A DNA stretch of 64,000 nt, taken from positions 1,240,001 to 1,304,000 of the forward strand of contig OX344757.2 of the NCBI GenBank assembly GCA_947034885.2, given 5' to 3'. The stretch is from Thuidium tamariscinum. Taxonomy: Eukaryota > Streptophyta > Bryopsida > Hypnales > Thuidiaceae. The number at the start of each line of letters is the position of its first letter. The first letter of the stretch is position 1. Of the stretch, positions 5,958-58,945 are shown one piece after another. The translations under genes and the position numbers were made by a program. The notes under the pieces were generated by a model. It worked only from the letters and a program-made list of their open reading frames with translations, was not told where the DNA came from and ran no database searches.

Positions 5958-6216
5958 TAGATGAAATTTGAGGCCTCCAAAAGACTGTGAATTTCCATAG
6001 TTTGGAAATGCAAAAATTGTAGAATCACACGAATCCATTGTAGCCGCAACTATGCCACGTCATTAAAAAAAACTCAAACTTTTTTTGGACTTTTTTGTGC
6101 ATTTTAGAACGTAATTTTTTCTTTATAAGTGCTAGCCTAACAGCAACAAGCCGTTTTGAGAACTATTTCGGGAACAGACCTAAAAACAACTCTTTGGAGG
6201 CCTCAAATTTCATCTA
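5958..6216. mobile_element. Multi-hairpin MITE family, copy 1
   Basis: The left end TAGATGAAATTTGAGGCCTC and right end GAGGCCTCAAATTTCATCTA are perfect inverse complements over 20 bp. The interior has the family landmark AAGACTGTGAATTTCC near the left end and GGGAACAGACC near the right end, with GCCACGTCATT in the middle. The CpG-containing positions of young copies are mostly decayed here, suggesting an old insertion. Confidence 0.7.
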
Positions 6217-6290
6217 ATGCATAGAGCGACATAAAAGAGCAATACGATACCAAATAAATTGCTTTCATTAATTGAAAAATTAGATTTACA

Positions 6291-6348
6291 AAGTGAAATT
6301 GCAACATGTTGTACAAAATGGAATCTACCTTCATGTGCAATTTCACTT
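6291..6348. other. Short perfect-stem hairpin
   Basis: AAGTGAAATTGCA (6291-6303) is inverted perfectly at 6336-6348. With a one-base bulge, pairing continues through CATG on both sides. Loop about 24 nt. Not associated with a gene. Confidence 0.6.
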
Positions 6349-9300
6349 ACACTAGATTATATGTAAGACTATCATTATTTGAATGAAATTTCTACGTAAA
6401 AACAAATTTTTAGTAAAAACTAGATTGTCTCATTTCTTTTTATAGGAACAATGTACATCTTGACTAGGATCTTATGCATGTTACAAGTTCCATGAAATTT
6501 GGATTTGATTCCATTGAAGTCTTACTCATTGAAAATTTTGAATTTCCTTTTTTCAACTTCATAAATTAAAAAGTGATTTATATAGTGGCAAGTTGCTACA
6601 TGAAACACATACCATTTTTTCTTAGAAATGACCTATTTCCATGAATCTTGTGATTTTAAGAATAATTTTTTTGAGTAAATAAAATATGGATAATTTGAAG
6701 AGCAATGAAAATATTATGTTTCTTAAAATTCAGACCTAAAAAAATTTACCACTAAAAGTTATGCCCAAAAAAAGAACAATAGAAAATGCAATGAAAATAG
6801 ACACTGTTTTTAAAATAATACAAAAGTTCAAAAATACATTTTTCTTATCCTTAAGATGCTTTTCTTCAACCATTTTCATCTTTGAAAAAATTATTTTGTG
6901 TTCTCTACAAGTGTACTTTGGTACTCTACTTTGAACACATGCGAAGGTTGGACAGTATAATATTTTCTAAAAATATCTTTTGGACTTGTGTAACTTTAGT
7001 AGAGGTCCTTAAATGCCAATTTTCAAATCAAAATTTGCATTTTTGGGTCAAAAATAGGACTAAAACTCCCCAAAATGGCTAAGGTAGACACCAATTGGAG
7101 AGAGTTTTAAAATAGTAAAATAATTTTTAAAATTTTTAAAAATTACACAACATGTAAAATTTTGTGTGCACCTTCATTTAAAATTTCAAGTCAAACGAAC
7201 TAAAGATGAAAAAGTTATGAGCAAAAAACTACTTGGTAAAGGTCAAGGGGACAAAAAATAGGACCTGGCCTACTACTTTTGCAATCACCCTGGCCCACTA
7301 CTTTTGTAAGTCAATATAGGAAGTAAATGCCTCTATCATATGACAAAATTTTGAGAATATACCAAAGGTAGCAACATCCATAATTATGAATTTAAAAGTT
7401 TCAAACATAATTTCTATTGATAGACATATAACCAATTATTAGACCCTATTATTAAGAAAATTTTCTTTGTGTACTTTCAACTGTATTATTTGGACATTAC
7501 AAATATAAATTGTGAATTTTTAAAGAGACAACTATAAAAGCACCTAATACCAATACCAAGGAGTGATATTCAAATGTAATACATCCTTGTAATCACATCT
7601 ATTCAATTCCAAAGACTTTAGAGGAGATAATTATGGATACAATGAATATTGCTATCTTACATTGTTTACTTCATTGCTCTCTTTCCAAATAGTTGTCATC
7701 CCTTGAACAAACACAGGGTGTTAAGGGATTCATTTCAAAGTTTGGTACAATGAAGTGTCGAGAAAAATACTTTTTGTACATAGAAATGTAAGGTTATAAC
7801 AAACTCAATAATCCTATTATACTTTATCATGATACCAAGATGTATAGGGATTAAGAAAAGTAAGAAAAATGAGCTAGGAGAATTTTTGTCCTAGTAGTAG
7901 AGGCTTATTTTTTTGAGTAGCAAGCTACTCAATTTTTTTAGGATTCATTATTGATGTATCTTTTGTCTATGCAAGGATTTCACCCTTCCAATCACAAAAG
8001 CATTAGATGTTTTGGGGGCATATAGAAGAGTGCAAATTTCCATGCTATAGGAAATTTCGAAATGTTGCCACGTAAGTACTCTGACATAGTTGAGAGATTG
8101 CTACATTACATTTCATTATTTTTGAATTTTTTAATATTAATTTCCTTAAATCAATTTTCAAATTTTTTATACTTTCTAAATATAATTTATTTTTTTCAAA
8201 ATTCAAACCAATTGTCGCTAATACACTGCATCGAGAACAATTTCAGGGAACAATCCCTAAAATAGTCTCTTATAGGGTAGAAAAACAACTAATGAAACAA
8301 AAATGACAACAACAACAATAATACTTGAAGGTGACGTAAGGAGTAAATCGACCTATTACAAGTTGAATGACTAGTTTGCCTTTTTGACATTATTGAAACT
8401 TCAAAATAAAATCATATAAAGATAAATGTGAGAAATGGAAAGAAGAATCAAAAATTGATTTTCAAAGACAAAAGATGATTTTTTATGAATCTTGAAAGTG
8501 TCTTGCTCAATTGGCCTAAAAGAGTCTCTAGGCTACCGTAAATCTATTCACAATATTTCCTATAAATGTCACAATATTTTTTAATATAGCCATGACATGA
8601 AGAAATATGCCTTGTAATGAATTTATACCCAAATTAGAGGTGGAAGTTCCTATTGCAATTACTAATAATTCCTTCACCATCACCCAAGGCATTATTTGTT
8701 ACTACTAACTCAATCTAATTAGCCCAAATCTCATTTATTGCAAAAATTCCATCGTGAGTTGGTGTAAGATTGTAAACAATCATTTTCTAGGTGTCCATGT
8801 AATGTAAACTTTAATTGAAGGAAATATTTTGTACAATATAAAGTTGTACTATCATTCAATCAGGTTGTATGGTGGAACTTGCGGGGCTATGTGGAGACAA
8901 TGGAATGTGCAATGATCCAATATATGAGCAACAATTCTCATTGAGGAATCATATATCAATGTGATGAAAGGTGATAGGTATGAGTAGTATGCGGACTAGG
9001 ATGCAATAAAGGTGAATTAGCCTATCACAAGCAAATTCTCCAGTGTTTTTTTCGAAGTTCTAGACTTCTAGTACTTAAACTTTTTGACACTTTCCACAAA
9101 TCATATATTGTACAAAACTCCTCTTGCATTCATCTACTATTATGTCATTTGTACACGTGCAACAAAGGAGCATTTTCATTGGGCGCACGCATTCGGCATG
9201 CCCCCTACGTACAAATAGGTTATTGTACCTTCCTTGCTTTTGCTCTCGCCAATGACCAAGGCAAAGGCAAGCAAACATGGATCATGAAGGTTCAGTTAGC

Positions 9301-10237: not shown

Positions 10238-10692
10238 TAAATCCTCCATTCAAAGTGGACTCAGCAGGGTAAATTTAGGTTCTCCATGGTAAAAATAAAT
10301 AAAAAGCCCCCTATTTTGAGCCTTGTCTCCCATTACATTCAGTAGCAGACTGTCATACTGCCTCCCAACGGATGAAATGGTGTGGAATATCCCACACCAT
10401 TCCATCCAGCATCAATGATATTCCACTCCAATCAGTAACTGAAGTTGCAACTCCAAGAAATGTCAGATAAAATTAGGTGGTGGAGACTTCACCAAGGGGA
10501 AGGCAGTCCTTCCATGGGCTTCTGAATGTTATGCCACGCTGATTTGGGGTCACTACAGTACTAACTGCAAATATGAAGTCAGAATTTGCAAAACACTCAC
10601 TCAGGTTATGTGCAAACAATAAAAAGTTTATACGTTTTTCCCTGAGGTAAATCCACCTGCCTAGAGTAGGCCCACTTCCAATGGAGGATTTA
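10238..10692. mobile_element. MITE family 2, copy b (455 bp)
   Basis: The left end TAAATCCTCCATTCAAAGTG is inverted at the right end (CACTTCCAATGGAGGATTTA) with two mismatches. It is collinear with the element at 2640-3101, including CATTCAGTAGCAG, CTGCCTCCCAACGG, the ATTCCATCCAGCA block and AAATTAGGTGGTG. Ends begin with TA as in copy a. The GC-balanced flank (10700-11040) is unlike the surrounding desert. Confidence 0.75.
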
Positions 10693-11087: not shown

Positions 11088-11429
11088 CATCGGAAGGGAT
11101 TTGGAGGCAAGAGAAGCCCGTTGCAGGGTTGTTCCCCAACCCGTTTCCACTACTATCCGAAAACTGCAAATCAACCCTATTGGCTCAATTTTTCAAATTT
11201 TTGAGAAACAAATTGAAATTTTTTTCCAAAAAATTCCAAAAAAGTGTTAAGGAACCTGAAATTGAATCAAAATTTTATTTTCTGCTTAAAAATTGAATGA
11301 AAATTGAATTAAAAATTTTCTAACATGGCAATCTCTCGACCACATCAAATTGCTAATGTGTCACCTTCCCAGAATCCCAGAACTCAAAAAAACTTGCGTT
11401 CTTGTATTGCCCTCAAATCCCTTGTAATG
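11088..11429. mobile_element. Multi-hairpin MITE family, copy 2 (inverse orientation)
   Basis: The left end CATCGGAAGGGATTTGGAGGC and right end GCCCTCAAATCCCTTGTAATG form imperfect terminal inverted repeats. The conserved core appears on the opposite strand as GGCAATCTCTCGACCACATC. Family landmarks GTTGTTCCCCAACCCG (left) and CCCAGAACTC (right) are present. Confidence 0.7.
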
Positions 11430-11569: not shown

Positions 11570-12311
11570 GGGTCATTGCAAGAAACACCGGTCCTATTTC
11601 ATGTCACAATGAGAACCACTTTTTTGTTGTCTACAATAACTTTTGGAGATTAAGTCCAATGAACATGAAATTTTTATTGAACATACCTAACTTGAAGTTT
11701 ATTAGATCCCTTATTTTTCAGAAATTAAAAAAATCATTTTGTATTTAAAAAACATTTTCGTTGAGCTGTCACAACATTACGTTTATGGTTATCATTATGT
11801 TCACAGTGTCTAAATTTAATGATTTGAAGACAAAACTTTCATGGTCTATTTGCATAGGTGTAAAACCTATAAATTCCAAATAAAAATCTAAAATATGTTT
11901 TTTTATGTCCTCCACATGAGTACAAATTTTTTCCCATGGCACACAATTTTTGAACATTGATCATGGTTCTAAGATCGTTCTTTTGGTCAAATCTCATCAA
12001 AATCAACTTTCCTCAAATGATCAATTTTTATTTTTTCTTAAAATTTATTTTCCTATTTTTTACAAATTAAAATGTGGAAGTACTAATTTTCATGAGATTT
12101 TGCACTTTTCTGGATTTCCTACTTAGAGATTTTTCCTATGCCTTTCCTTTCTAGGGTACCTTCTTCTTAAAGGTTTATACATGAAACATATTTTTCACTT
12201 TTTTTAAAACTTGTTTTTCTAATTTTAAAATACTCTCGAAAAAGTTTTAACGTACTTAAGACTACGTTTGAAAACGCTACACTTTTTGCACGGTGTTTCT
12301 TGCAACGACCC
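11570..12311. mobile_element. 742-bp TIR element with 21-bp inverted ends and TATT flanks
   Basis: GGGTCATTGCAAGAAACACC(G) at 11570-11590 is inverted at 12291-12311 with one mismatch in 21. TATT immediately precedes the left end (11566-11569) and follows the right end (12312-12315), a possible 4-bp target duplication. The interior is AT-rich and has no long open frame. The part at about 11975-12115 (TTTGGTCAAAT, TTTTTTACAAATTAAAATGT) is shared with both arms of the fold-back at 47553-48587. Confidence 0.75.
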
Positions 12312-14052: not shown

Positions 14053-15254
14053 AAAATGTTGAATACAAACTTCAACTTGTCAAAGAATTTTCTTCAAGAA
14101 ATGATGAAAATTGCTTTTATAAATGAATCCAAAGTTATTTTTTCAAAAAGATGCTCACTTTGCTTGAAAAACAAAGATTATAACTTTCACATCACTAATC
14201 CAAATGGAATAAGTCAAAGCTTCACATGTAGAAAAAAATGTGGTCTATGAGGAAAAAAACTTAAACTTTAATCTCAAATTTTTATAGATTTTTTTTCTTC
14301 ACCACCAATGTGGAAATTTTGTTTTGAAATGGCATAACTTTTGCTCCCAATCACTAATTAAAATGAAAATTATATTACTACAAAGCTAATAAGTTATTCC
14401 ATCTTACAAAAAATTCCAAAAACATTTACAAAAATTGAGATCATAAGAACTTGCCCAAATTTTGTTTTGTTTCATAACTGGACAATAGTTCTTTGGAGAT
14501 TAATGTTTTGCTCTTCATGGTCATCCACTTTCTATAAGATAAATTTCTTTCAGCAAAATGCATTGACTTCATGACTATTGTAAAGCATTCTTAAGTCAAT
14601 CTTCAACTCCAACAAGTAGACCCTCTATGTCCCATTTCAATATTTTCCTTTTAAAATTGATAATCTACTTCTTTATCCAGACATCTTCCTCTACCTAATT
14701 ATGAAATACATATGATTATTTCATAGTAGTTGAAATCAACCAAGTATTCAAAGTAGGTAGTAAAAATATCCTTCAATTTTGGAAGGCACTAATTGTTTTG
14801 TAGACCTACTAATTTCTTTCCAATTTTGCACCTTTTTTTTCAATATGCAACCAGTTTTTTTATTGAATTCCACTAGCTAACTTTGAACCAACATTTGACC
14901 ATTTTTTTACAATCATTGGTACCTAATTGCCAATGAACACCAAGCTTGGCCTTCTCATAATTAACTTATGATTATGGTAATTTAGCTTGTAAATCAATAA
15001 ATACACACACATGTATGCAAATACACAAATACACATATGTATATACATAATTGAATTACTATAAGATAGGAGATTGAGGTTACTATATAAGTTATGCACT
15101 ACATTTTGAAGTAATGGAAGGCTGTTTCATGTCTCTTCTCCTTGCTATTCTCAAAGCAATGAGAGATAAACTAACAAATGTTAGCGTAATAAATACTATT
15201 TTTTTTTCAATTAAAAAATTCAATTTTGTATTAAATTAAATATCTAACATTGTT
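14053..15254. other. AT-rich intergenic DNA
   Basis: No gene. Parts at 14050-14470 (CATAACTTTTGCTCC...AATCACTAATTAAAATG) loosely resemble the interior of the preceding TIR element and may be an older fragment of the same family. A short CA/TA-rich tract lies at about 15000-15050. Confidence 0.4.
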
Positions 15255-15352
15255 GTCTCTCAAACACATTAGATGATGATTTGGCACAGTTCCCAAGTTC
15301 ATCAATGTGTGAAAATTCATAGTCTTGTTTAGAGCTTAATTTCATGTGATGC
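15255..15352 (-). mobile_element. Decayed fragment of the multi-hairpin MITE family
   Basis: Sequence GTTGTCTCTCAAACACATTAG followed by GGCACAGTTCCC and then CATAGTCTTGTTTAGAGCTTAATTTCATG matches, in order, the core, the TTCCC block and the terminal repeat of the family on the minus strand, with many substitutions. The other end could not be placed. Confidence 0.4.
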
Positions 15353-20553: not shown

Positions 20554-20859
20554 CATTAGAGGAGATCAGGAGATTCGAGGGCAATAGAAGACTGCGAAAG
20601 CCCTGTTCCTATGATTGTTCTCGATACTATCGGGTCAGTAAGTAAGTAATTAATCTTCAAAAAAAAAAAAAAAAAAAAGTTCATCTTGAAATGCAAAAAG
20701 AAGTCCTAATTTTTTTAATTTTTTTTCAAAAAAAAATCAGTGACGTGGTACACTCTCGACCACATCAGTAGAGGCCAGTTCCACATTCCTGCCGCAGATT
20801 CTTGCATTCACTGCGTTGGGAACTCACAATCTCCTATTGCCCTCAAATCTCCTCTAACG
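20554..20859. mobile_element. Multi-hairpin MITE family, copy 3 (inverse orientation)
   Basis: Left CATTAGAGGAGAT and right ATCTCCTCTAACG, with GAGGGCAATAG-AGA repeated inverted inside them, give terminal inverted repeats of about 44 bp. The core is on the minus strand: CTGATGTGGTCGAGAG then GTACCACGTCAC. A run of 19 A lies in the middle. Well-preserved CpG sites in the right half suggest a moderately young copy. Confidence 0.75.
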
Positions 20860-21433: not shown

Positions 21434-22454
21434 CCAGGAAGATGACTCCTTGTAATTTAAAGTATACATTTTAGCTAAAAAGGTATTAGATGTGGGGCCA
21501 TTTACCTTCATTAATCTTAATTTTACATAAAAAGATAACAAGGGTATATTTTTAATATCCTATGATTTTCTTATAAATTCAATAATATGGTCCCGGGGAG
21601 GACACTTCTTGTGTATTTGGGGGACCCACATGCGGCGGTGGGGTATTTTTAGGGGGGCTATCAATTACTTGTAATCATTACTTGGCAACATTAAAAGAGC
21701 CCATATTTTACCATAAAGCCGAAAAATCAGCCATATTATCATCCCTATTTTATTTTTAAAACACTTTGCCTTTTTAATGTCCCCTATTTTATATATAAAT
21801 TTCTTATAAATTTTACCCAAGATTATTTAAATGTACCCTATCTTCCGCCGCACGTAGGTTACCAAAAAATGGGAAGTGTCCTCCCCTAGAATATGGTTTT
21901 TATAGTTAGGCTATCTTACATACAAAATTTATATGTCTAGTTTTTTCATACCCATATACAATTCACACTATAAAACTAATATCTTATATGAACATTTACT
22001 TTTTTTGATATATGAACTACTAGTATTGTAGTAGAATTTTAGATGACAAATAACGTGTTGTCACATTGTTGGCGCACTTGAAGAAGGATTGGTTTGTACA
22101 AGCTAGAATTATTTGACAACTACAACAAATCTTTAGAAAAAAATCCCTCAATTCACTAGATTGTGTAGGTTTTATTTTTCACTTAAAAAAAATTCTACAT
22201 CTGTCTAGACATCTGTACTCATTGTATTATAAAAAATTTATACGGATGCTATTTGTAAGGGCTTATGTACTAATAAAAATTCCTACTAAATGACATTTTT
22301 ACATAACCTAATTTGTATATAATAGGATATATGGCATTTCAAGGACCCTATACGATAGCCCTACATATCATATAAAATTTATTCCCTTTCAATTGAATAG
22401 ACCCTATCTTTTAACTCATGTAGTTTTCAAAAAATCAAAACTAATCTTTCCATG
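21434..22454 (+). mobile_element. hAT-like non-autonomous element, copy 1 (interrupted)
   Basis: Terminal repeats CCAGGAAGATGA (left) and CATGGAAAGATTA (inverse of right). It is flanked by AAGTCCCC (21426-21433) and AAGCCCCC (22455-22462), an 8-bp target duplication with one mismatch. It is homologous in inverse orientation to 52123-53328, which has the same termini. A separate 298-bp element (21592-21889) is inserted in it. It is shorter than copy 2 because about 0.5 kb of copy 2's interior is absent. No open reading frame. Confidence 0.75.
21592..21889. mobile_element. hAT-like MITE nested in the larger hAT-like element
   Basis: Left end CCCGGGGAGGACACTTC, right end GAAGTGTCCTCCCCTAG. Inside these, GGCGG and CCGCC with ACCCACATGC/GCACGTAGGTT extend the inverted repeat to about 45 bp. 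AATATGGT is directly duplicated at 21584-21591 and 21890-21897. The homologous element at 52123-53328 lacks the insertion and reads through the same site, giving an empty-site control. The 8-bp duplication and C-rich/G-rich TIR indicate the hAT superfamily. Confidence 0.88.
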
Positions 22455-23768: not shown

Positions 23769-24252
23769 GTATATAAACAAAATTTGAATTTTTGTATTTT
23801 TTGTGAGTTTTCAAAGTCAACACTATTTTAGAAAGATAAAATTTATACATTAGAGGAGATTTGAGGGCATTAGAAGACCACAAGTCATTTCAAGTTTTTA
23901 GACTATGGGAACATGCCACATCAATAGTCTGATGTGGTCGAGACATTGCCATATCAGAAAGTAGTAATTTAAAAAAATTCAATTATTTAAAAAATAATAA
24001 TATATTTTTTGTATATAAACAAAATTTGAATTTTTGTATTTTTTTTTGGTTTTCAAAGTCAACACTATTTTAGAAAGATAAAATTTATACATTAGAGGAG
24101 ATTTGAGGGCATTAGAAGACCACGAGTCATTTCAAGTTTTTGGACTATGGGAACATGCCACATCAGTAGTCCGATGTGGTCGAGACATTGCCATATCAGA
24201 AAGTAGTAATTTAAAAAAATTCAATTATTTAAAAAATAATAATGTTTTTTTT
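23769..24252 (+). repeat. 242-bp tandem duplication
   Basis: The unit beginning GTATATAAACAAAATTTGAA occurs at 23769-24010 and again directly at 24011-24252. The copies differ by only a handful of substitutions and small length changes in T runs, so the event is recent. The unit contains the left terminal repeat and hairpin core of a multi-hairpin MITE. Confidence 0.9.
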
Positions 24253-24429
24253 GTAAGATATTTCCTAAAATCAATTTTAGGTTTTAACACTTTTTGAAAT
24301 TTTTGAATTTTTTTTTAAATTAAAAAAATTCAGCCATTATGGGTTGATTTATTGTTTTAGGACAATTTAGGGAAATAGTAGGGGAATGCCCTTGAAATGG
24401 CCCTCCCTTGCCTTCAAATCTCCCCATTA
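23848..24429 (+). mobile_element. Multi-hairpin MITE family, copy 4 (left part tandemly duplicated)
   Basis: The left end CATTAGAGGAGATTTGAGGG occurs at 23848 and, because of the 242-bp duplication, again at 24090. Each is followed by CTATGGGAACATGCCACATC and the core GATGTGGTCGAGACATTG. The right end CTTCAAATCTCCCCATTAG abuts and shares its last bases with the next copy. Confidence 0.75.
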
Positions 24430-24722
24430 GGAGGGATTTGAGGGCTCTGGGAGCCTGTGAGTTCCCACAGCCCGAAATCCTGAAATCAGCCGCGAGAACG
24501 CAGTTCCCGCAGGAATCCGACGTGGTCGAGTGACTGCCAGGTCATCGACTTTTTTTTTTCCGAAAAAAAAAAAAATTGGACTTTTTTTCATATTTCAGGA
24601 CCCCAATTTTTTTTTTTTTTTTTTAATTTTTTTAAATGCTGACCAGCGGTCAGCCGTTTCCACACCCTGTTTCGGGAACAGTCCCGAAACGGCCCTTTCC
24701 AGGCCTCAAATCCCTCCTAATG
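24425..24722 (+). mobile_element. Multi-hairpin MITE family, copy 5 (best-preserved, 298 bp)
   Basis: The left end CATTAGGAGGGATTTGAGG and right end CCTCAAATCCCTCCTAATG are perfect inverses. Internal landmarks in order: GTGAGTTCCC, GACGTGGTCGAGTGACTG then CCAGGTCATC, a T/A-rich middle, the palindrome GCTGACCAGCGGTCAGC, and the palindrome TTTCGGGAACAGTCCCGAAA. Retained CpG sites suggest a young copy. No coding capacity. Confidence 0.82.
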
Positions 24723-25429
24723 CTAATGACTATAGAATGTTCATTAAATTTTTCTTCTTTGTTTTCAATGTTTTTCAAGTAAATTTGAATGATAGTTATT
24801 TTATTTAATTTTTCAGAGATGAAATCACCTGTCAACTATAAACCATTAAATTTTTAGATTTATTGGTGATTATCTTAAACTACTATGATTTCTCCCAAAG
24901 CATAAGAAAAAGAAGTTTACATCTAATTAAAAATTATCTTGAGAAATCAAAATTTTCTTTTGTAGGTGCATATTATAGTATAAATGAATTTTTTGGGTAC
25001 ACTTGAAAGACTTTTTTTGTGATCAATCACACACAATTCTTTATTTTTGTAGATTCTTGGATACCTTTGTAAGGCCTTTCTTGTGTGTTATAGCCAAGGA
25101 GAATTTTTTCTACTAACCCAAACTAAATTGGATGAAAGTATGCCATTTTACATCCTCTAGTAAGCTTTTTAGCCATCCTAAATCCACCATTAGGCTTTGA
25201 CAGTTAACAAACTTCAAAGTATTCACTAGGTGCATGTTTGAAGTGCATTGTGAAAGTCCCACTCAAATTGTCCCTATGGCTTTACAATTATAAAGCGCCA
25301 TTTGTAAGGTAAGATGCATTCCAAGCCCCAAATTGGTGAACACTTCTTGGACATCAATGGAAGCTGGAAAGAAAATCAATTAAGTTAAAGCAACTTACAT
25401 CTATCTATTTAACCCTAAAATAACTTGGA
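24723..25429. other. AT-rich intergenic DNA
   Basis: Nothing recognised. Confidence 0.5.
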
Positions 25430-27633: not shown

Positions 27634-27866
27634 CATTAGAGGAGATTTTAGGCCTCTGGAAGACTACAAGTTTTTAGATTGTGGGAACACAAAATTGCAA
27701 GAATCTAACATGGTCAAGAAAGTGCCACATCATTAGTTTTTTTGAATTTTTTTCACATTTCATGACCCAATTAAATATTTTTTTGGTGAATTCTAGCTTG
27801 ATGGCATCTGGCAATTTTGGGAATAGTTTTGAAATTGTCCTTTGGAGGACTCAAATCTCCACCAAT
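27634..27866 (+). mobile_element. Multi-hairpin MITE family, copy 6
   Basis: The left end CATTAGAGGAGATTTTAGGC and right end GGACTCAAATCTCCACCAAT are imperfect inverses. The GATTGTGGGAAC and core-like AACATGGTCAAGAAAGTGCC-ACATCA blocks are in the family order. Confidence 0.7.
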
Positions 27867-29800
27867 ATTTGAGGATGGATAGTTGCACTTTTGTCCTATA
27901 TAGGATAATTCTTTGTCATTCATTGAATTCTGAACATCCACTTCAACATTTATGGGCTATTCTCCAAGCACTCAATTCAAAAGCCTGTAGATGGATGATG
28001 AATGTTGTGAGAATCAAACTTCAGGCAACAAATCATTTATTTTTATAAAGGAAGCTTAGAAAAACTATGCAATATGATATCAATGGAAAAGAAATTCTAC
28101 ATTAAATGTATGCATTCAAGTATCTTCAATTATTTATTATAAAATTTCAAAAGTAATCGTACTATGTGTAGGTTGAACAATTGGAAGGCAGTTGTGTGAA
28201 AGATCTTGTGCATCATTGGATTCATTGTTAAATGTGACCTTTTGCATGACATTAGACTCTTCTTTCATATCATAGATTTATTCACATTTACTATAATTAC
28301 TATTGGCTATTTTCTTGTCATTAGCAAAGATAACTATTTAACTATGATCACATGGCAATGTTTAGGATGACATCAAGCTGTTGCACCAAATGACACATGG
28401 TAAATAAACATGTAAATGACTACTTTGTTTAAAATATTGAACAAAAATTAAAGTTTGTTTTGTGAGGGTTTCATTCACTATGAGAAGGAAACTTAATTTT
28501 CTAATGAAATCTTTCTATACCCTCATTTCTTTTATGGAATTACCTAGTGTCTTCAAATATGGCAATGAATTCAAGATGTAAAAATTGTGATGGCCAATGA
28601 TTGTAAACTAAGTGCGGATAATGTATTCATATTCTAAAATCCCATTTAGCAAAGATTAAAATAACTATTATGTTTGTTCAAAAATTTGAAGCCCATGCTA
28701 CTTTAATTTTAGGCATATGCATTCTAAGTTGAAAGTAGATCACAATCTTAAGGAAGTCTAATTTGATGTTTTGGGGAAACTCAAAAATTAAGAGACAATG
28801 AGTGACATTGAGGGATGCCTTGATTTGCTCATAGTAATTTATATGAATTACAATAATTTAACCCCGAAACAAAGCTTGACAAATTTAACTTCTAATTAAT
28901 TATGGAAATTTGAAAAAATAAAAATATAGAAATATTGCAATTGCATATCCATGAGTTCTAATACACATCAAAATACAATTATATATATAAATATATATAT
29001 TTTTTAAAAAAATTTCAATTTAGTATTATCAATTATTCATTGGATGGATTTCTAATTTAATTTGCCAATATAATTATCAACAGTCCTTAAATTGTAGAAA
29101 ACACTAAGTTTTTGTAATTATAGTTTCAAAGTTGCACCATCTTCATTGTGAAGTATCAAAAAATTTGGTACACTATTTTAAACATTATGATCTTGATGCT
29201 GCTTAGAAAGTAGGCACTAAGAAAATCATGGAGAAGTAGACATACAAATTTGCTACCTGATTATGTCACTAGAACTTGCATTTAAAAGAATTGTAAATCT
29301 ATCCAATCCATCTTATTTTCAATATATATTGTTTTTGTATAAGCTTTGGCCTAAAACACCAATACACTTTATAAGGGATACATCACTAATAATAATGTTG
29401 TTGAGGTTTTCTACATGTATAGTCTTCATTATTCATACACTATGGTTTGCTAAGAATGAAATTTTAGTGTTAGCAATATTAATTACAAACTTTGACACTA
29501 AATGCCAACAATACTACCGAGGTTACCAATGCAAAATGTCAATACAAACACTATTTGTCAATTGAATTTCCAACAAAAGAATCAAATTAGGAACTAGATA
29601 GTTCACCATGCACTAAATCAATATTCAATGTAAGGTCTACTTGTCAATTAAGTGAGAATTAGAGTGAGTTGCATGAAAAAATAAATAACATTGTAGGTAT
29701 CATAATACTCATAATTACATTAGTATTGAGTGTAACTATTTGAAATTAACAGGACATATTTGTTGAAATTATGGAGACATAGGGTGGATCTAGGATTGGA
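27867..29800. other. AT-rich intergenic DNA
   Basis: No gene. A short TA/AT-rich tract lies at about 28981-29004. The 100-codon open stretch at 29263-29565 is AT-driven and has no recognisable domain. Confidence 0.5.
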
Positions 29801-45886: not shown

Positions 45887-47552
45887 GTCCTATTCACGGA
45901 GGTCGGGGGTCGCACGGCGAATGGTGGGTGCTGAGGTTAAGGTACACAGTTCAGTAGGAGGGAAACGTGCTGAGGCAACCGTCGAAGATCGAATATTGTT
46001 AGCATGGAAATTGAAGGTCCGAATAGACGCTGATGTTCGCAGTCATCGAATTCATTGTTCTCATTTGAACCACGCATGGACCTGGTTACCTCAGATTGCT
46101 TTGAAAGCACATTGCATGCCGCTGGGAGTTTCTTTGTGAACCTTCCTCCAAGCGTGATTGCGCTTTTGAGTTGCCTGTGACCCAGACTCTCAGCTCTAGT
46201 TGCGTGGTGTTAATTGCTGTTTGTTGTGTTTGTAACCAGGGCCAACGGGGATGGCCCTTGACCATGTGCAACCTGCTCGACTCCGACAGATCTTAAACCC
46301 TAGAGGACGAATTTCATTGGCCGGTGTCAAACACCGTTTCTGAGCTCAATGTACACGGTTTAAGGGGAAATTTCGTTAGTGGTTTTCTTAATCGACAGTG
46401 ATCGATGGGAGGAAAAGTAGGTTCACCGATCTCATTTTCGGAGACGTTCGCAAGTAAGAGCTGTGTCAGTTTTTCAAGTTCCAATATACGTGCGGGCACC
46501 GTGGAAGATCCATGCGGTAAAGGTGTTGCAGGATCCTCACAGAATACTCTCTAATTTTGCGGACGATCCAATTGGAGATTTCGGGATTGAGGTGGCGATG
46601 GTTTTGGCGCGAGGAGGCTGGACATTGGTGGCAATGCTAGTCTGCGCGCAACACTGTCGCTGCCGGCAAGAACGATTTCAGCGCACGGGATCGTGTAACC
46701 CCATGTCAACAGCTTGGCCCTCCTCTACTGCGCGTGCATGAGAAAAATCGCCGTGAACTATCTTCTAATATCATGATCCCCAATTTGAAAAGAAAGTGAA
46801 CGTCAAATTGGCAACCTCACGATCCAGCAATTTGAAACAGCGAGCCCCAAATTTAACATATCACATCCAACAATATCAGCCTCCCTCCCCCCTACATTGA
46901 ACTCATCTCGCGGACCAAGGTGACTGTCCACCCAACTGAATGCAGGCACAGCTGTTTAAATTGCAAGCGCTCGTAAATCGAAAGCTCAAAATACCCTCTA
47001 CCACGACTATTTCTGCTACCAAACAACAATGCAAAATCCAGATTGAAGGGGGTTGGTTTCTTTTGGGGCGCTCAGTGTACCCAAACACATACAGGTATTG
47101 AGCTCGATAATGGACTACCAAAAACGCTTTCTACTCTAGCCATTTCCGTTGCAACTACGCAGCGACTTAAAACTATACAGCACAGTATCAATCGCTCCTG
47201 TCAACGACGAAGTGGACAAACAGCACAGTCTTCACCACCGCCCTCCCTCCTGCGCTGCATTTTTGATCGACCCCTGCTTCTGATTGATCGGTCGCTTCTG
47301 ATCAACCACGCGTGCGCTGGTTCCAAGTGCATCAGACGACGCTGTGCTCGGTCTGACGAGGTCGACCTCCATCCCCTGCGCTCGCATGAGGACAGATTCA
47401 TTTGTCGTACAGCCCCGTGAATGCCTCATACACCCTCCACAAAAAATTACAACCACCCGAGAACACTGAACCTCACCTCCTCACAATTGCAAGTTTGCGA
47501 ACAGCGAAGGCAGGTTGGGTGTGGATATGAATGATTGCCAAAAACATTCGAT
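45887..47552. other. Aconitase 3' flank, GC-balanced, no gene recognised
   Basis: Includes the aconitase 3' UTR. Open stretches at 46463-46741 and 47043-47420 (+) encode no recognisable domain. GC level is like the genic DNA, so an unrecognised exon or non-coding transcript is possible. Confidence 0.4.
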
Positions 47553-48587
47553 GCGTTTTGTCACACCTTAGTATGTGATTTGTTTTTGGGCCATAACTTT
47601 GTGTTTTAGCTTCAAATGACTCAAATTTGAGAAGAAAGTTATTTATAACCATTATATACCTTTCCTAATTTTTGAGGATTTTTCAAAAATAATTTACTAT
47701 TTTTAAACAGCCCTAGTAATTTCTCACAATGGATGATTTAGGGATTTTTAGCACTATTTGGAACCCAAAAAAACGAATTTGGATTTGGAATTTGGAGAGA
47801 GTGGTCTCTTAGCAAACTTATAGCTACTGTCCGAAGGAACTTAAGAAATATTTATTTTTATGTGGTATAGAAATTCTACAAAGAGAGCTTCTTTCTATAT
47901 TTTTTTTCCTAAGGTATAAAACATTATTTTGGTGAGTTTTTTGGTCAAATTTCATTACCAAAAAGTCTTCTCAAATGTACATTATTTTAGATTCTTTTGT
48001 TTTAAATCATATTTTTTACAAATTAAAATGTCAAAAGTTGTATTTTCTTCACCAAAATTTTATGTGAATTCTATGTCCAAAATTCAAGTGAAGAAAATAT
48101 AACTTCTAACATTTTAATTTATAAAAAATAACACTTTTTTAAATCTAAAAAATGTTCATCTGAGAAGACTTTTTGGTGATAAAATTTAACCAAAAAACTC
48201 ACCAAAATAATGTTTCATACCCTTGAAAAAAAATGTAAAAAGAAGCTCTCTCTCTGTGGACTTCTACAATCTACACCACAAAAAATAAGTATTTTTAAAA
48301 TTCCTTTAGATAGTAGCTATAAGTCTACTCAAAGACCAATTTCTCCAAATTCTAAATCAAAATTCGTTTTTTAGGATTCAATTAGTGCTAAAAAACCCAT
48401 AATCATCCATTGTGAGAAATTATCAAGGCTGTTTAGAAATAGTAAATTATTTTTGAAAAATCCTCAAAAATTAGGTAAGGTATATAATGGTTATGAGTAG
48501 CTTTTCTATCAGTTTGGAGTCATTTGGAGATAAAACACAAAAATCATGACCAAAAAACAAATCAGAAATTAAAGTGTGACAAAACGC
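47553..48587. mobile_element. 1-kb fold-back (palindromic) element
   Basis: The two halves are inverse complements over nearly their whole length: GCGTTTTGTCACACCTTA at the left border and TAAAGTGTGACAAAACGC at the right. Paired blocks include ATAACCATTATATACCTT, AATTTTTGAGGATTTTTCAA and CTCACAATGGATGATT. The centre is near 48075, with almost no spacer. It is AT-rich and sits abruptly inside GC-balanced DNA. No clear target duplication. Inner arm sequence is shared with the TIR element at 11570-12311. Confidence 0.85.
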
Positions 48588-49406
48588 AACAAATAGTACA
48601 AGTGTTTCTTGCATTCACCGACATGCACCTCGCATGGTGTTGCGCACATGAAGCGACCACCACATCCCCTACAGTATACACTGCCATTTTCGTACCCCCC
48701 ACTTTTTGGACCCATTTTCGTCGAAGGCTTTCGTGGCGCTCGTTGTGGTGGATCCCCCGGCGTACAAGATTTGGGCCCCAGTGCTGGTATTCGCAAGGTA
48801 TTACCAACTCTCTCATATATGTCACATTGTAATGCCACAACTGTCGCGCCGAAATGGACAACCCCCAAATCACAGCATCTGCGCGACACAAGATATATAC
48901 ACAGATTCAACAATGACCGATTCAGAGTAAGAGTGAGATCGAACACAATGCCGTCACTTATTGCAGAGCGGCCACATCGTAGTGTCAACACTGGTCGCTC
49001 GACGACATCCACTCCCCTAGCTCATGTTGGCCTGACACTGGAGAACAATAGGCGAAGAGGGAAAACCGACTCGGTTGCCTTTCACCGCCACTCAGTTGCA
49101 ATTAAGCAATGAAAGCAGGCAAAGTCTGTGGGACATGGAAAAGCTACTTCTCTGGCGGTTCTGGCGCTAACTTCGTCCAGGGCATATATGCAGTTCCATG
49201 CTCCTCGTCCATGCATGCCCAAGAGGAGAATATTTGAAGGAGCACATGGTGCCATTTCAAAAGTAAGTAAGGACGAATGGGACCACTTCTGCCACGTACA
49301 GACATCAAGCAATGTCAACAAGGACGCACACATTCTGCATCATCCAGTGAGCAGCTCTTCCTACTCTGCTCACCGAGGCAAAGCGACGTGTCTCCTAATT
49401 TGATTG
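48588..49406. other. GC-balanced region with open stretches on both strands
   Basis: Overlapping long open stretches (48609-49112 on +, 48569-49012 on -) have no recognisable domain, no obvious codon bias and no homologue I can name. Treated as non-coding or unknown. Confidence 0.4.
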
Positions 49407-49595
49407 CACAGGAAACTCATATCACGTTCCCGGTGTTGATTCCCGGTGAGTCTCATTTTTCCCTGTGTAGTTGCAACACGTGTCCAAAATTACTGTAATT
49501 AGTAAAGTTTTCACAGGTGTCAAATTTTAAAGTTCAGTGGAAAACGTGAGACTCACCGGGAATCAACACCGGGAACGTGATATGAGTTTCCTGTG
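49407..49595. mobile_element. 189-bp MITE with 49-bp perfect terminal inverted repeats
   Basis: The left arm 49407-49455 begins CACAGGAAACTCATATCACG, and the right arm 49547-49595 is its exact inverse. Flanks are TTG on both sides (49404-49406, 49596-49598), a possible 3-bp target duplication. CACAG termini plus a 3-bp duplication would fit a CACTA-like element, but the family is not certain. Perfect arms imply a recent insertion. Confidence 0.88.
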
Positions 49596-51325: not shown

Positions 51326-51395
51326 ATTATTAAAATTTATCAAGATAAAAATTTATAAAATGTTGAAATCCTTTAATTTATGAATTTTAGCAATC

Positions 51396-51787
51396 ATCAG
51401 GAGAAATTTCAGGCCCCTAGAAGACTGTGAGTTCCTAAACTATAGAAATACTTTCAAAATGCTAAGAATGCTACCACGTAATCAATCTAACATTGTTGGG
51501 CAACTACCACATCAAAGAATATTAATTAATCAATTAAATTAATTGGTTTTCTAAATCCAAAGAAAAATAATTTCTAAAATATTTTTTAGTTTTTTATTAT
51601 TATTATTTTTTAATTCAAAAATTCAGAATAGTACTTGCTAGTTTGCAACATTGAGAATAGTTGCAAGAAATATTTGATTGCAACAACTTCAATTTGCCAT
51701 AATTTCTTATTCTTGTACACAACATAAAACTAGTTCAAAAAACAACCCCAAGATAGTCTCTTGGAGGCCCCAAAACTCGTCTAATAA
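51396..51787 (+). mobile_element. Multi-hairpin MITE family, copy 7
   Basis: The left end ATCAGGAGAAATTTCAGGCC is followed by TAGAAGACTGTGAGTTCC, and the right end is GGAGGCCCCAAAACTCGTCT. The core is degenerate (CTACCACGTAATC...CTACCACATCA). The interior is AT-expanded. An old copy. Confidence 0.65.
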
Positions 51788-52114: not shown

Positions 52115-52122
52115 TATATTGT

Positions 52123-53328
52123 CCTGGGGAGATTACTCGCGATTTTTAGAAAACTACGTGAGTTAAAAGATAGGGTCTATTCAATTTGAAGGGCATAAAT
52201 TTTATATATACGTAGGACTGCTATAGGATTCTTGAAATGTCACATATCCTATTATATATAAAATAGGCTATGTATAAACATCATTTAGTAGGAATTTTTA
52301 TTAATAAATTAGCCTTTACAAATAGGATTCATATAAAAAGTTTGTAGTACAAATAATGAATATAAATGTAAACAAACTTTTTTAATTGAATGATAAAACT
52401 TACACAATTTAATAAATCTAAGGATATTTTTCAAGAGATTTATTGTTACTATCAAATAATTCTAGCCTATACATACAAATCTTTCCTTAAGTATGCCAAC
52501 TATGTGACAACAAGTAAGAATCTACTGTTCCAAGACAAAAGAGTTGAACTGTAAATTTACAATGGAGTTGTACTATGGAGATTAATTTTGTGTTTGCACA
52601 AAGTACTCGTTAAGAAATTGGTGTAGAGTGTGCAACATTTGCATGGAATCTTTTCTATACTTTGACATTACAAACTCTAAATTTGCCTCAACTACTTGAA
52701 TATGTATTTGTAAATGTTTAGAATCATCTTCTTTTTACTAGTATTTAATAAACACTCTTTTATTTTTTGATTCTAAATTCAAAACTATTCTTAATGCATA
52801 TATATATAGATAAAATATATAGTCTCTATATTATAGTAGAGGTCATATTCTTGGGTTAATCTACAATGTTCTTAGAATGTCAATTTCTCATGTTGTTCAT
52901 GTTATATTACTAGTATTGGTGTTTTTCTTAGTTTTAGTATCATAACTATATTTAATGTTTCTATGATTATTATTCACCATATTAGGTTGTTTAGAATACA
53001 TGGTATAGAATTTAGAAATATTTAATACTATTGTTGTATTTTACATTTTTATTTGTCATTTGAAATTATATTACAATACAAGTAGTGCGTATATTAAAAA
53101 AATAGTGTATATATAAGAACTACTTTTATAGTGTGTTGTAAATGAATATGAAAAAATTAGACATATAAATTTTGTATATAAGATAGCCTAACTATAAAAA
53201 CCAAATGATTGAATTTATATGTAAAAATATGGTCATTTTAATTACTAAAATGAAGGTAAATAGCCCCATGTTAAATACCCTCTTAACTCGGATGTATGCT
53301 TAAAATTATAAGGAGTGATCTCCTTGGG
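52123..53328 (-). mobile_element. hAT-like non-autonomous element, copy 2 (1206 bp, intact borders)
   Basis: Left CCTGGGGAGATTACTC and right GAGTGATCTCCTTGGG are terminal inverted repeats. TATATTGT is perfectly duplicated immediately outside (52115-52122 and 53329-53336). An 8-bp duplication is the hAT signature. It is collinear, in inverse orientation, with 21434-22454 and carries the empty site for the MITE nested in that copy. It has an extra stretch of about 0.5 kb (roughly 52515-53040) missing from copy 1. No transposase frame. Confidence 0.88.
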
Positions 53329-53336: not shown

Positions 53337-55008
53337 GGAGGCTTAATAAGAGGGTCACACATGAAGATCACCATCAAGGATGACTAAGTTGAACATGTCT
53401 ATGACTCAAGTCTATGCCCATTACTTCTATCTTGCCATCATTCCCTATGATATTTTCTATTGGAATATAATCTCATACCTTGTGAAGGTTTGGCAATAGG
53501 GTTCATATGTTGTGTGATGCCCAAATCCACAATCCACTTGCATATGTAGTGATGATGGTGCAATTGAACACCATGATTACAAAGTCATTTGCCAATTTTT
53601 ATACATTTACATTGAATACATTCTCTACAACCTTCAACATGTTCTTGAAGCAATTTGCATCTAGTGGCATCCAATTTGTTGCAAACAAAGTACACCCTCA
53701 TGTCAAGGCACATTTGAGCAATGTGCATATACTAAAAAAAATTAGGGAGTAATAAAAGAAATTTGATTGTACATGAATGATTGCTTATCTGTTTTCACTA
53801 CAAAATGACTTGTACTTCTGTAATTGCACCAACTTTGTCTTATCCGTGATGTCCAAGTCATTTTGTAGTCAATACTAGGACTCATGGATGAAGATATGGT
53901 GAAGTACAAGATTCATCCATAAGGATTTGCTCAAAATGTTGTCAACCATAATATAAGGAGAATGGAAAATCAAATGGAACACAATACTCAGTCATTATCA
54001 AGTATATAATTTTCATACATTGCAATTGCACTTAACTATAACACAACTCTAAAATGACTACAACATTCTCTTTAGTACATGTCATGATTTTTGGCTCCAA
54101 AGACTAGTAGGGAACTATGTTGTCATGAACAAAAGTCAAACTCAAGTTACTAGGATGCAATTAAGCTTTACTAGTATGCAACCATAAAACAAGTACACGG
54201 TCTCCCATAGGGTTATCCCACAATTTTTTGCTCTAAAGACAAGTAGAGCACTACACTATCTTGGATGATAGTGTTATTAGATGCAATTGCTCCTACTAAA
54301 AGTGTTGCAATGTAGTCAAATACAAATACCACAAGAGTAGGAGTTTGCAACCACATGTCACTACAAAGTTACTTAGTTTGATTCCACCGTTACTCACGCA
54401 CAATTTTTGAGCCTATCTTCATGACATGGGTAGATACTCATCATGTCATTACAAAGACAATAGTATTGGTACATATGAATACAATGAAGACTATATTGAG
54501 AAAATCAATACAAAGAAATATATTCCAATGAAAGAAGAAAACAAAAGTGAAAAGGAAATGAAGCTCAAATTAGGTTGCATTCTTAATATTCTACTCTAAC
54601 TTTTACTTTGGCTCTAAACAACTTCTAAAGTAACTAAAGTATGGTCTAACTATAATTCTAACTATAAGTTAAGTCAACTCATATTGTCAGCTCTCAATGT
54701 ATTATTCACTTCAACAACCCAGCTTGCTTCCTTAGGCTAGTTCGTTGCAAATTTAAAAAAATTGGGGGGTCTTCACATTGTTCTTTTTTCAATACACCAA
54801 AAGCAAAGATGGGCTATGTGTTGAAAATACTTTTTCAATGTGTGAGGCATTTACATGTTGAAACTACGTTGCGTTTGCAATGGCACTAGAGAATGACTAA
54901 ACATGACTAGAAAGGGTAATATCCTAAGGTCATATTCTTGTGTGCTTATTGCCAAAAATACTAAGGTGTTCTCAATATATTGTATTTGTTCAAATTTAGA
55001 TTGTATTT
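53337..55008. other. AT-rich intergenic DNA with faint internal repetition
   Basis: No gene. Around 54090-54430 a motif like TTTTTGGCTCCAAAGACTAG recurs in diverged form (TTTTTTGCTCTAAAGACAAG). A 16-bp perfect hairpin lies at 53797-53869. Confidence 0.45.
53797..53869. other. Hairpin with 16-bp perfect stem
   Basis: ACTACAAAATGACTTG (53797-53812) is inverted exactly at 53854-53869, with a 41-nt loop. Partial pairing continues into the loop. No gene association is visible. Confidence 0.65.
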
Positions 55009-55291
55009 CATAAGAGGTTTTCTCACCATGTTGGGAGACTGTGAGTTCCCGGATTGTGGGAACTCGCTGGAAACAGTCCCAGCAGCAGATCTGATGTGGC
55101 ACAGAGATTGCCACATCAGATAATAATATTTTATTAAATTTATTTTTTTATTATTAATTTTTCATTTTTTAAATATTTTTATTTTTTAAATATTTTTTAA
55201 ATATTTTTTAATTTTGACCAGCAGTGGCTGGTTCACAGAATGGGGAACGAGGCTGAAACAGTCTTTCAATACCCCGAAAAAACCTCTTATG
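55009..55291 (+). mobile_element. Multi-hairpin MITE family, copy 8
   Basis: Termini CATAAGAGGTTTT and AAAACCTCTTATG. Internal hairpins in order: GTGAGTTCCC...GGGAACTCGC, TCTGATGTGGC...GCCACATCAGA, then CCAGCAGTGGCTGG. Very similar to 58624-58945. The 12-bp string GTTCAAATTTAG lies just left of the element (54988-54999, 9 bp away) and immediately after its right end (55292-55303). Confidence 0.82.
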
Positions 55292-58200
55292 GTTCAAATT
55301 TAGCATTTTTGCAAATTAGTACATAAGTGTATTAAATCAAGAAATGCTTGGCAACTACAATGGCATAAGAGTTTAGGATTTTTTAGCATTCACCAATACC
55401 CTTCTTGAACTAATAAGTTCTCTTTTAACCCCTTAAGGACTTGATCCATTGTGAAATGGTCAAACTTCTTCTTTGAATTAATTTTAGCCTTTTTAATAGT
55501 GTTCAAACAAAAATCTGATATTTATACTACTTAAAACTATGAATTCTATATCACTCTGAGAATTTGCAATTTGTTTTGTGAAAATTTCTAATTGTTATCA
55601 TTTTTGTTGCAAAAAATGAACATAAATGAGTAAAAATAGAAAAAAAAATCCAAATTATTTGAAATTTTTTTAGAAGGTAAAAATAGCAATAAAGATAAGA
55701 ATAAAAAAATTTCAATTGATTATTTTATTTTTTACAGCCAATATAGCCACATCAAAACACCCTAAAGTCAAATTCAATTATCGAACCAAATTTATCCTTT
55801 TATTTAATTAATGTACAAAATTCTTATAATTTTTGCTAATAGAAAGATCAATTTTCTATTTATTTTGTATTTTTTCAATAATTTTGAAGGAAAATAAAAT
55901 TATTGTGATTTTTCAAAGCTAAAGGTGGAAATAAAATTATATCAATTACAATTTACATTAAAATAATCTGTAATATTTACTATAACTGAAGAGTGGAATG
56001 ACCAATATAATTTTGTAATTTAATTTCAAAATACACTTAAAGAAAAGAAAACATGAATGAAAAGTAGAGCATATCGTGTTATTTGGATTTCAACACATGG
56101 AGCTTTCAATTGCAATAACCTTTTCAATTTTTGACATTTCTCAAAACTTTAAAATAGAATAGACATAAAACTTGAAAAGATTTGTTTTCTTAGCTGAAGT
56201 TAAATTCTAAAAATAATTATATTAAGAGTTATAATCAAGGTTGACCAAGGTGCATCCACTTTTTGGATGCTTGCGCGTTTAAAGATTAATCTTTCCAATT
56301 TTTATGCTTCTTCATTTTTTCATTTTCTCATGGGCCTCTTTAAAGGAATCCATTGAGGAATGTGATGGAGATCATGGCTAGGATTACTTAAATATTTAAA
56401 TTCTAAAAAAGAGCCAATTGAAGCTTTGTAGTTTCAATTTTGCAATTTCAAGAGTCTTATGGTTGCAGTGGAGTCTTATCTTTTTGTTGACAATCAATTA
56501 AATTCTATTAAATTCTTTTTGTTTTTAGGATTTGCAAAAGGGACTAGAAGAGTTTTCAAAGGTATTTAGGCAAAAGTTAGAACATGCTTAACTTGCATCA
56601 ATTTACAAGTGGTTTGATTTAGAACACGTTGCATTTGATATTTTTAAGTGGTTTGATATAAATTTTGATATATTTAGGAGTGTCTGGTTTCTATTATGGA
56701 TTTCTAGACACAAACAAAGTCAATGTCTCTATCAAAAGGGAAGAATTTTGGATTGTTTGATGCCTAAATAGGCCTCACAAGCAAAATAAATAATGTTGAA
56801 AAGCAAGAACATGACTAGAACTTTGAACACTCCCAAGTTTTACTACAAAGAGAAGACTTTTGTCACCATTTTCATTTGGTAGATGAGTCCTTCCTTCAAA
56901 AATCAATATCTAGATATCCTTACCTATTTTCAAGTTATTTTTAGCACTTTTGAGAGGATCATACAAGGACATTCTTTTATTCACTTTTAATTATTCTATG
57001 CCAAACTTTACAATGTTCTTCAATGATTCTCATGGCATAATTTTGGGCCTAATTTAAATTATATATTTTAAAATAAGATCAATTAAGTAGTTCTTTATCA
57101 AACCATGAATACTTGGCACTTTAAGGATAATGATGGCATAGGAGATCCTACTTCCTACAAAATACAAATGATAAAATTATTTGGATAAGAGAGGAAATTT
57201 CAATAGAATAGATGTTGAATTCTTTCTAGTACTACAAACTACTACTACAAACTATGAAGCTTGCCTTCAAATTGCATATTATTAGATAAAATGGACATTT
57301 CCAATCTATAATGCAACTCAATTTTTTACAAAAAAAACAAACACACAAAGTCACAAATCCCCCCGTTGATATTAAAGTGCAAGCTTTGTCTTCTTTGTGC
57401 ACTTCTTTGAACTTTGGACTTTGGTAGCTTGACTAATTCCAAATTAAAGGCTCAAATGCATTTTTTTCTTTGACAAAATCTAATTTGACCTCAAGGGCAT
57501 CATTAGAAGAGCAAGATACTCCTTATAATTCAAAAGAATTATTTGGAAATATTCCATAACTACAAATACATCACACGAGAAAATTTGCCAACTTTGTTCA
57601 ATTGGAGCTACCTATGAATATTGTTTATGACTTTTTTTTTGTACAATGAACATTACTTATTCAAAAATCAAATTCAAATTTCTAATTAGGGATTATTGCC
57701 AACCTAAGTTTTCAAATAGCCAACAATTATTGCTTCTACAACTACAAGAGTTGGAATATTTCATTTAGGAATATTGAGCAAAGGTAACAAGATTCACTAA
57801 TAAAGATGAAATCATAGCCAAAGTTCAATGTTATATTACTATGACCAACTATTAGCCTTGAAAGTGGACTCCTTTTTAAGCACAAGTACTCTACAACATC
57901 CATTATAACAAGAATAAGCCAAAAAAACTCACACATTTTTTCAATAAAGTTAAGGTAAATGTACACAAGAGAATCAATTGATTGTCAAGATAATCATTAC
58001 AAATAAAGATGTAGTAAAATAAGTATTGTCAACCTTGTAATGCAACTACCTTTTGAACACACTCAATTGCCTCATTGTATCCAACAACACCTAGTGTACC
58101 AACTACAATCTCAACAATGCTTGCGTCTTTTGCACGTTCAAGTAGATAGAATCTATACATTAAATCCCTTACTTGGGCTTAATAGATCCTTTACCAAGAC

Positions 58201-58623
58201 TTAATCTTCTACATTGTTCTTTAAATAACAAATGCATGTACATTAGACTTGCAATCACTTAAATCTAATACTAGAACATGTAATAAACTACAACTATACT
58301 AAAATAAAAAAGGTATTCCAAAAATAGTCAAATAAAATTACCACACAATAGTGCCAACACAATCAAATATATAAATCTATCCTACTAGTGAGGGTGCAAA
58401 ATTAGTATACCTATAAAGTTCTATTGAATTACTAGTAGTAAAATATAATACAATATTTCATTGCACACTAGTATTTTATCACTTTGATAAATTAGTTCCC
58501 CATGCACTATTGAAATAAATTAATATACCCTTCTTCACCTCTCAAGTATCAAAATAGATGTGGAATGCTTAGAAATTAGGGCCTGGAAGGTTCATTGGTG
58601 AAAATCATAGAAACAACATGTGA
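55292..58623. other. AT-rich intergenic DNA
   Basis: No gene, no clear element. The short C-run at 57360 (CCCCCG) and scattered low-complexity tracts are the only features noticed. Confidence 0.5.
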
Positions 58624-58945
58624 CATAAGAGGTTTTCTCACCATGTTGGGAGACTGTGAGTTTCCGGACTATGGGAACTCGCTAAAAACAGTCCCAGCAG
58701 CAAATCTGATGTGGCACAGAGACTGCCACATCGGATAATAATATTTTATTAAATTTATAAAAAAATTATTAAATTTTTTTATTTATTATTATTATTATTA
58801 TTTTTTATTTTTTATTTATTTTTTATTATTTTATTATTTTTATTTATTTTTTAATATTTTTTAAATTCTGACCAGCAGTGGCTGGTTGACAGAATGGGGA
58901 ATGAGGTTGAAACAGTCTCTCAATACCCCGAAAAAACCTCTTATG
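58624..58945 (+). mobile_element. Multi-hairpin MITE family, copy 9
   Basis: Same termini and hairpins as 55009-55291, with few substitutions (for example TTTCCGGACTATGGGAACTC). The AT-rich centre is expanded by ATT/TTTA runs, accounting for the extra 39 bp. No matching target duplication was seen. Confidence 0.82.

Follow-up and report, generated by a model that had tools for sequence, protein, structure and literature searches.

Miniature inverted-repeat transposable elements (MITEs) of plants, namely those of the Stowaway (Tc1/mariner), Tourist (PIF/Harbinger), Mutator, CACTA and hAT kinds, are short and non-coding, have inverted ends, are dispersed in AT-rich intergenic DNA, and are flanked by duplications of their target sites. 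In the portions of PMC12550479 drawn on here, plant MITEs are sorted into five superfamilies by their ends and duplications, and one of the two programs was set to require duplications of at least 2 bp, so that families free of duplication would be prone to being overlooked or misclassified.

Transposons that leave no duplication are also known. Spy elements have a distribution wider than animals. According to the sections of PMC4482050 and PMC11304231 used here, in which the hosts named are animals, they belong to the PHIS superfamily and combine inverted ends with the absence of a target-site duplication. DINE-1/HINE elements, which are non-autonomous Helentrons, likewise lack a duplication, carry inverted repeats and hairpins, and were once mistaken for MITEs (PMC4067079, in the part consulted).

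In this study, we analysed a 64-kb stretch of the genome of the moss Thuidium tamariscinum (hereafter the window) and found a repeat family which resembles the five kinds of plant MITE in size, lack of coding capacity, inverted ends and AT-rich intergenic dispersal, but in which no target-site duplication of at least 4 bp was detected, a duplication of 0 bp fitting both of the comparisons with a pre-insertion site. It resembles Spy in its inverted ends and in that 0 bp fits best, with 1 bp also possible, but differs from the animal elements of those two papers in its plant host and from the AAATTT target of Spy in its insertion sites: none of the ten has AAA to the left, and one has TTT to the right.

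Results

The first-pass annotation of this DNA had listed ten places as copies of one dispersed, MITE-like family. A profile search together with alignments confirmed all ten as a single family and added two copies, at 8001-8294 and 24090-24728, so that the family occupies 12 places in the window. The elements are 230-390 bp long and share a homologous body. The training set of the profile comprised nine of the listed places and the copy at 24090, and these ten score 122-224 bits; outside the training set the profile matched 8002-8282 at 69.3 bits and 15338-15111 (listed as 15255) at 31.1 bits, whereas ten local dinucleotide shuffles and the reversed window gave at most 6.8 bits. None of the copies wholly contains an open frame of 120 aa. 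The mobile, MITE-like character proposed earlier is thus supported, the elements being short, non-coding, dispersed and bounded by terminal inverted repeats that co-vary within copies, and the best reading is an old, diversified and decayed family of miniature inverted-repeat DNA transposons. In the open-licence literature searched, no account of such a family was found, and six end and core strings looked up in literature text led to no transposon topic, as judged by titles and the openings of abstracts.

The copies are named below by their start coordinates. On the forward strand, alignment and profile place copies at 27634..27867 (core, described below, at 27703-27734) and 51395..51786 (core 51485-51516), and profile and end alignment place one at 5955..6219 (core 6033-6064). 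The copy at 8001..8294 (core 8079-8110) is likewise forward. Two forward copies, at 55009..55291 (core 55089-55120) and 58624..58945 (core 58704-58735), are 82% identical and form the CATAAG subfamily described below. On the reverse strand lie copies at 11088..11429 (core 11319-11350; alignment and profile) and 20554..20859 (core 20739-20770), the latter carrying 8 additional bp within the right end, and a decayed partial copy at 15101..15351 (core at about 15243-15274). The remaining three, all forward, are clustered. A 242-bp tandem duplication at 23769-24255 (96% matches) spans the flank and the left part of one copy, and its two units hold the left part of a copy at 23848..24089 (core 23927-23958) and the copy at 24090..24728 (core 24169-24200). 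The latter is split by a nested copy at 24425..24722 (core 24515-24546), so that its right end consists of the side at 24724 and the stretch preceding 24425. The nested copy has perfect 19-bp ends and the richest chain of hairpins.

All 12 copies sit in AT-rich parts of the window, which extend over 4-30 kb and 50-64 kb and in which CpG stands at 0.32 of expectation, compared with 0.82 at 30-50 kb. Among 27 open frames of at least 120 aa in the window, 12 were scanned against Pfam; five matched CBM_20, Glyco_hydro_77 or Aconitase_C, seven matched nothing, and no autonomous element or transposase was found. The two CBM_20 matches and the Glyco_hydro_77 match come from frames at 30.7-36.3 kb, a combination which we take to be the make-up of plant DPE2, and the frames at 44.6-45.9 kb match Aconitase_C. 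The DNA of the window is eukaryotic and probably from a plant nucleus.

Other repeats also occur in the window, and the family profile found nothing better than E 0.95 in five other inverted repeats. Two copies of an element with TAAATCC...GGATTTA ends, about 460 bp in size and 74% alike along most of the sequence, occur at 2640-3101 and 10238-10692, and the inner hairpin of the former, at 2784-2850, gives a weak, sub-threshold match to MIR6140. A 276-bp element with 24-bp ends (TAAGGTGGGTACACCTAAAA..., 96%) lies at 25593-25868, a near-complete inverted repeat of about 1 kb that is 82% self-complementary, and is possibly a source of long hairpin RNA or a foldback element, at 47546-48594, and an imperfect tandem array of AATGGGG-rich units with 19- and 39-bp periods at 61272-61451. 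The 189-bp element at 49407-49595 has perfect 49-bp inverted ends (CACAGGAAAC...) and a weak match to MIR2646 (42 bits against a gathering score of 245). This element and another inverted-repeat element, at 11570-12311, have candidate duplications adjoining their ends (TTG, on both sides of the former, and TATT, respectively); because these are two of 16 listed inverted-repeat pairs, they do no more than suggest that duplications survive in the window.

The ends of the family read CATTAG...CTAATG, or CATAAG...CTTATG in two copies, and can be generalised as CATWAGAGG...CCTCTWATG. There are accordingly two subfamilies with a shared body and different ends, CATTAGAGGAGATTTGAGGGC and, in 55009 and 58624, CATAAGAGGTTTTCTCACC. 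The terminal form first proposed as common to all copies therefore holds for most of those listed, but 55009 and 58624 carry the variant CATAAGAGGTTTTCTC, and the partial copy listed as 15255 has no clear ends. The two ends of a copy match each other at 166 positions over ten copies, compared with a mean of 136 after swapping, and none of 20,000 permutations reached as high a value; when 58624 is left out, the numbers are 150 and 126. (For this comparison one end was rejoined across the nested insert, one had its 8 extra bases skipped and one was gapped.) The copy at 5955 has a perfect 24-bp inverted repeat, 5958-5981/6193-6216, outside which the outermost three bases differ (TTA versus CAT). 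In the CATAAG subfamily, base 4 is changed in inverted form at both ends, which indicates that this base belongs to the element rather than to a TA duplication.

The flanks of the ten complete copies were compared for traces of a target-site duplication. At 4-6 and 8-10 bp, flank identity was 0.26-0.35 against 0.26-0.30 for mismatched pairs, and at these lengths no duplication was detected in any of the ten. For the 8-bp duplication of hAT elements 24 of 80 flank positions matched (0.30, control 0.26), and for the 9-bp duplication of Mutator 28 of 90 (0.31, control 0.28); both candidates were rejected. The first-pass annotation could not place the family in a known superfamily, and the absence of duplications of at least 4 bp both upholds and sharpens that outcome.

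At 1-3 bp there was a small excess of matches (5/10, 9/20 and 13/30, against controls of 0.26, 0.30 and 0.31). Such an excess speaks slightly for a conventional plant MITE that belongs to a known superfamily and makes a duplication of only 1-3 bp (TA as in Tc1/mariner, TWA as in PIF/Harbinger, or that of a CACTA relative), which has been blurred by age or misplaced. The dinucleotide TA just inside the outermost CAT/ATG at both ends of most CATTAG copies is in line with this explanation, and so is the copy at 5955, whose perfect repeat ends exactly there. However, most ends conserve the CAT/ATG that lies outside the TA, AA/TT takes the place of TA in the CATAAG copies, and an exact 3-bp match of the flanks occurred in 0 of 10 copies. 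Under TA, moreover, both the nested site and the empty site of 58624, described below, lose fit and extra bases must be assumed, and both comparisons likewise disfavour TWA. We consider a short-duplication MITE a possible, though less likely, explanation. CACTA elements have CACTR ends, and CACTA itself was rejected on the family ends, CATTA or CATAA, and on the lack of exact 3-bp matches. When duplications displaced from the ends were scanned at offsets of -2 to +6, a length of 1 bp at offset 0 was the sole combination to stand out (mark 0.2).

Two insertions can be compared with their sites before insertion. If the nested copy at 24425 is removed and a duplication of 0 bp is assumed, the right end of 24090 agrees with the consensus at 18 of 20 positions, compared with 12, 10, 9 and 8 positions for ungapped duplications of 1, 2, 3 and 4 bp; when a single gap is permitted, 1 bp fits as well. 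The copy at 58624 is inserted in another repeat that has uninterrupted relatives at 22371..22426 on the reverse strand and 52151..52206 on the forward strand. When the flanks of this copy are joined, they align over the junction without a gap, with E 2e-6 for 22426-22371 and E 0.008 for 52151-52206. Offset 0 is best here (10/13 and 9/13); the next best offset, -2, reaches 7/13 and 8/13 and would mean bases lost, not duplicated. Homology of the left flank extends over only about 13 bp. The host repeat appears to be a third, decayed member of another inverted-repeat family, represented at 22279-22551 and 52122-52324 (27-bp ends, ATTCCTACTAAATGAC..., 93%; copies 84% alike).

The copy at 55009 is flanked by a 12-bp direct repeat, GTTCAAATTTAG, at 54988-54999 and 55292-55303, the left member being 9 bp away from the element and the right member adjacent to it. 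This sequence occurs nowhere else in the window, a flank repeat of this kind is seen in at most one of 3000 random loci, and it could have been left by repair. In the other nine of the ten insertions, the 30-bp flanks have no exact repeat in common longer than 4-7 bp. Flank pairs sharing an exact repeat of at least 7 bp number 4/10, against a fraction of 0.087 at random loci, and three of them do not adjoin the ends. From the copies of this one window, we conclude with moderate confidence that insertion adds no target-site duplication, 0 bp giving the best fit and 1 bp being possible as well.

The absence of a duplication, the hairpins and the short inverted repeats are also features of HINEs in the part of PMC4067079 consulted, and would suit a rolling-circle, Helentron-like element. 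We consider such an origin very improbable, since the T|T target is found at only 2/10 insertions and the A|T target at 1/10, the ends are CATTAG/CTAATG rather than TC...CTRR, the inverted repeats are terminal instead of subterminal, and there is no constant 3' hairpin, the right hairpin being intact in few copies. Helitrons and Helentrons were rejected on these targets and ends. Spy and the rolling-circle elements, the known duplication-free kinds considered, each fail a tested feature.

In addition to its ends, the family has a 32-nt core, located 70-90 bp from the left end, which aligns without gaps in all 12 copies. Identity is 0.78-0.81 in the core and 0.73-0.81 in the left end, compared with 0.49-0.63 in the stretch between them; an AT-rich middle part also reaches 0.7-0.88, through its composition. 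Within the core, the stem (0.80) is hardly better kept than the loop (0.74). The exact 13-mer GATGTGGTCGAGA, first described as a constituent of most copies, is present in 4 of 12, and the other copies have altered forms of it.

The core contains an inverted pair of half-sites. At the centre of the 5' half-site the dinucleotide is CG in one copy, TG in eight and CA in three, and at that of the 3' half-site it is CG in two, CA in five, TG in two, TA in two and GG in one; CG, TG or CA is therefore found in 12/12 copies on the 5' side and in 9/12 on the 3' side. These dinucleotides look like the remains of a decaying methylated CpG, and hence the ancestral half-site was probably GACGTGG. The base preceding GACGTGG is T or C, and the dinucleotide it belongs to is CG in two copies, TG in six, CA in one and another in three, so that this base may also have been part of a decayed CpG, with TGACGTGG or CGACGTGG as the ancestor. 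Judged from the aligned copies, the half-site was probably (T/C)GACGTGG, an ACGT-type site like those of plant bZIP proteins, since blurred by CpG decay. GACGTG fits BACGTV, a bZIP-bound element related to the G-box in a table of PMC3438128, and the reference list of that article includes a paper about competition between bZIP classes whose title names TGACGTGG. We infer that the core is a putative bZIP binding site. The core pattern (19 fixed bases, four spacings) also matches 15 stretches in prokaryotic genomes and three in viral contigs, which we treat as chance matches because about seven would be expected in the prokaryotic collection by an estimate made by hand. The exact left end occurs in 0 viral contigs.

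The core had also been described as a conserved internal hairpin accompanied, in several copies, by chains of further hairpins. Such chains are real in a few copies. With the ends included, whole copies fold with z-scores of -8.05 (24425), -8.40 (55009) and -5.58 (20554). After removal of 21 nt from each end, z is -8.2 in 55009 and 58624, -4.9 in 24425, between -3.6 and -2.4 in 23848, 15111 (the partial copy listed as 15255), 20554 and 24090, and between -1.6 and +1.3 in the other five of the 12 copies, whereas 30 random intergenic 250-mers gave a mean of -0.27 (sd 1.46, lowest -6.34). Some of the trimmed stretches are approximate, 23848 being a unit without a right end and 24090 having been taken to 24429. 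In the exact letters first given, the flanking hairpins occur in one or two copies each: GTGAGTTCCC and GGGAACTCGC pair in 55009 and differ by one change in 58624, CCAGCAGTGGCTGG is found in 55009 and 58624, and GACCAGCGGTC and TTTCGGGAACAGTCCCGAAA are found in 24425. In a looser form, the left hairpin has 8/10 pairs in 5955 and 8001, and the right hairpin has 7/8 pairs in 8001 and, counting G-T, 8/8 in 27634.

The three interiors that fold very well (3/12, z -4.9 to -8.2) would be expected if the hairpins were functional as structures, that is, as a folded transcript, a small-RNA precursor or a DNA cruciform under selection, and the arms of the left hairpin are weakly matched within copies (own versus swapped arms, p 0.07 to 0.09; seven or six alignable copies, arms chosen by eye). 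The core, however, shows no covariation above shuffles among the 12 copies of this one window (77.5% of cells paired versus 77.9%; four cells changed on both sides versus 4.6), and arms exchanged between copies pair as well as a copy's own in the core (p 0.73, 12 copies) or in the right hairpin (p 0.69, ten copies). A search of the whole window against Rfam, with E up to 1, gave seven matches, none of them at the copies. The least structured interior (z +1.34) belongs to 5955 despite its perfect 24-bp end repeat, which indicates that at least one copy made its last move without requiring a hairpin chain; 24425, with its perfect 19-bp ends, is well structured. We consider selection on structure very unlikely. 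The first-pass annotation had itself held that stems decaying like the rest of the copies genome-wide, with no compensatory changes, would refute its reading, and for the core stem as a structure, given the lack of covariation and the equality of own and swapped arms, the result among the 12 copies is of this kind. Repair of quasi-palindromes was considered as a source of the hairpins and set aside, the swap tests giving no clear signal that needs it. The hairpins behave as sequence, and what seems to be preserved in the core is a putative DNA binding site and not a fold.

Discussion

Of the two functions first suggested for the core, a role in mobility is supported, because its conservation is close to that of the left end, extends to the loop nearly as much as to the stem, and holds across subfamilies with differing ends; a structured transcript or compensated stems are not, given that the core shows no covariation above shuffles and that own and swapped arms perform alike in the core and the right hairpin, the left hairpin giving p 0.07.

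On balance, we lean towards a MITE family moved by some transposase, whose insertion is probably free of duplication and whose core is a putative binding site. In this scenario, the transposase would recognise the ends, excise the element and join it to a blunt or near-blunt cut in the target. The core, as an inverted pair of ACGT-type half-sites, would bind a protein that serves either mobility or the expression of the parent element, and this protein could be either the transposase or a host bZIP factor. After insertion, copies would decay, strongly at CpG, and the hairpins would weaken without repair. The case for insertion without target duplication, and for a putative internal binding site conserved in sequence, is reasonable, albeit not final. 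More tentatively, and with less confidence than we give to this reading, the family may represent a plant cut-and-paste group with no target duplication, no preference for AAATTT, CATWAG ends, and internal inverted sites of putative bZIP type.

Much of what we describe is a MITE family of the ordinary, decayed sort, and the hairpins do not constitute a new RNA. If the absence of a duplication holds genome-wide, the family would be an inverted-repeat transposon of a plant that inserts free of duplication, and MITE searches which demand a duplication would tend to overlook such a CATWAG group, if it is real. The core, in turn, offers a testable case of a MITE that may spread paired, putative ACGT-type binding sites.
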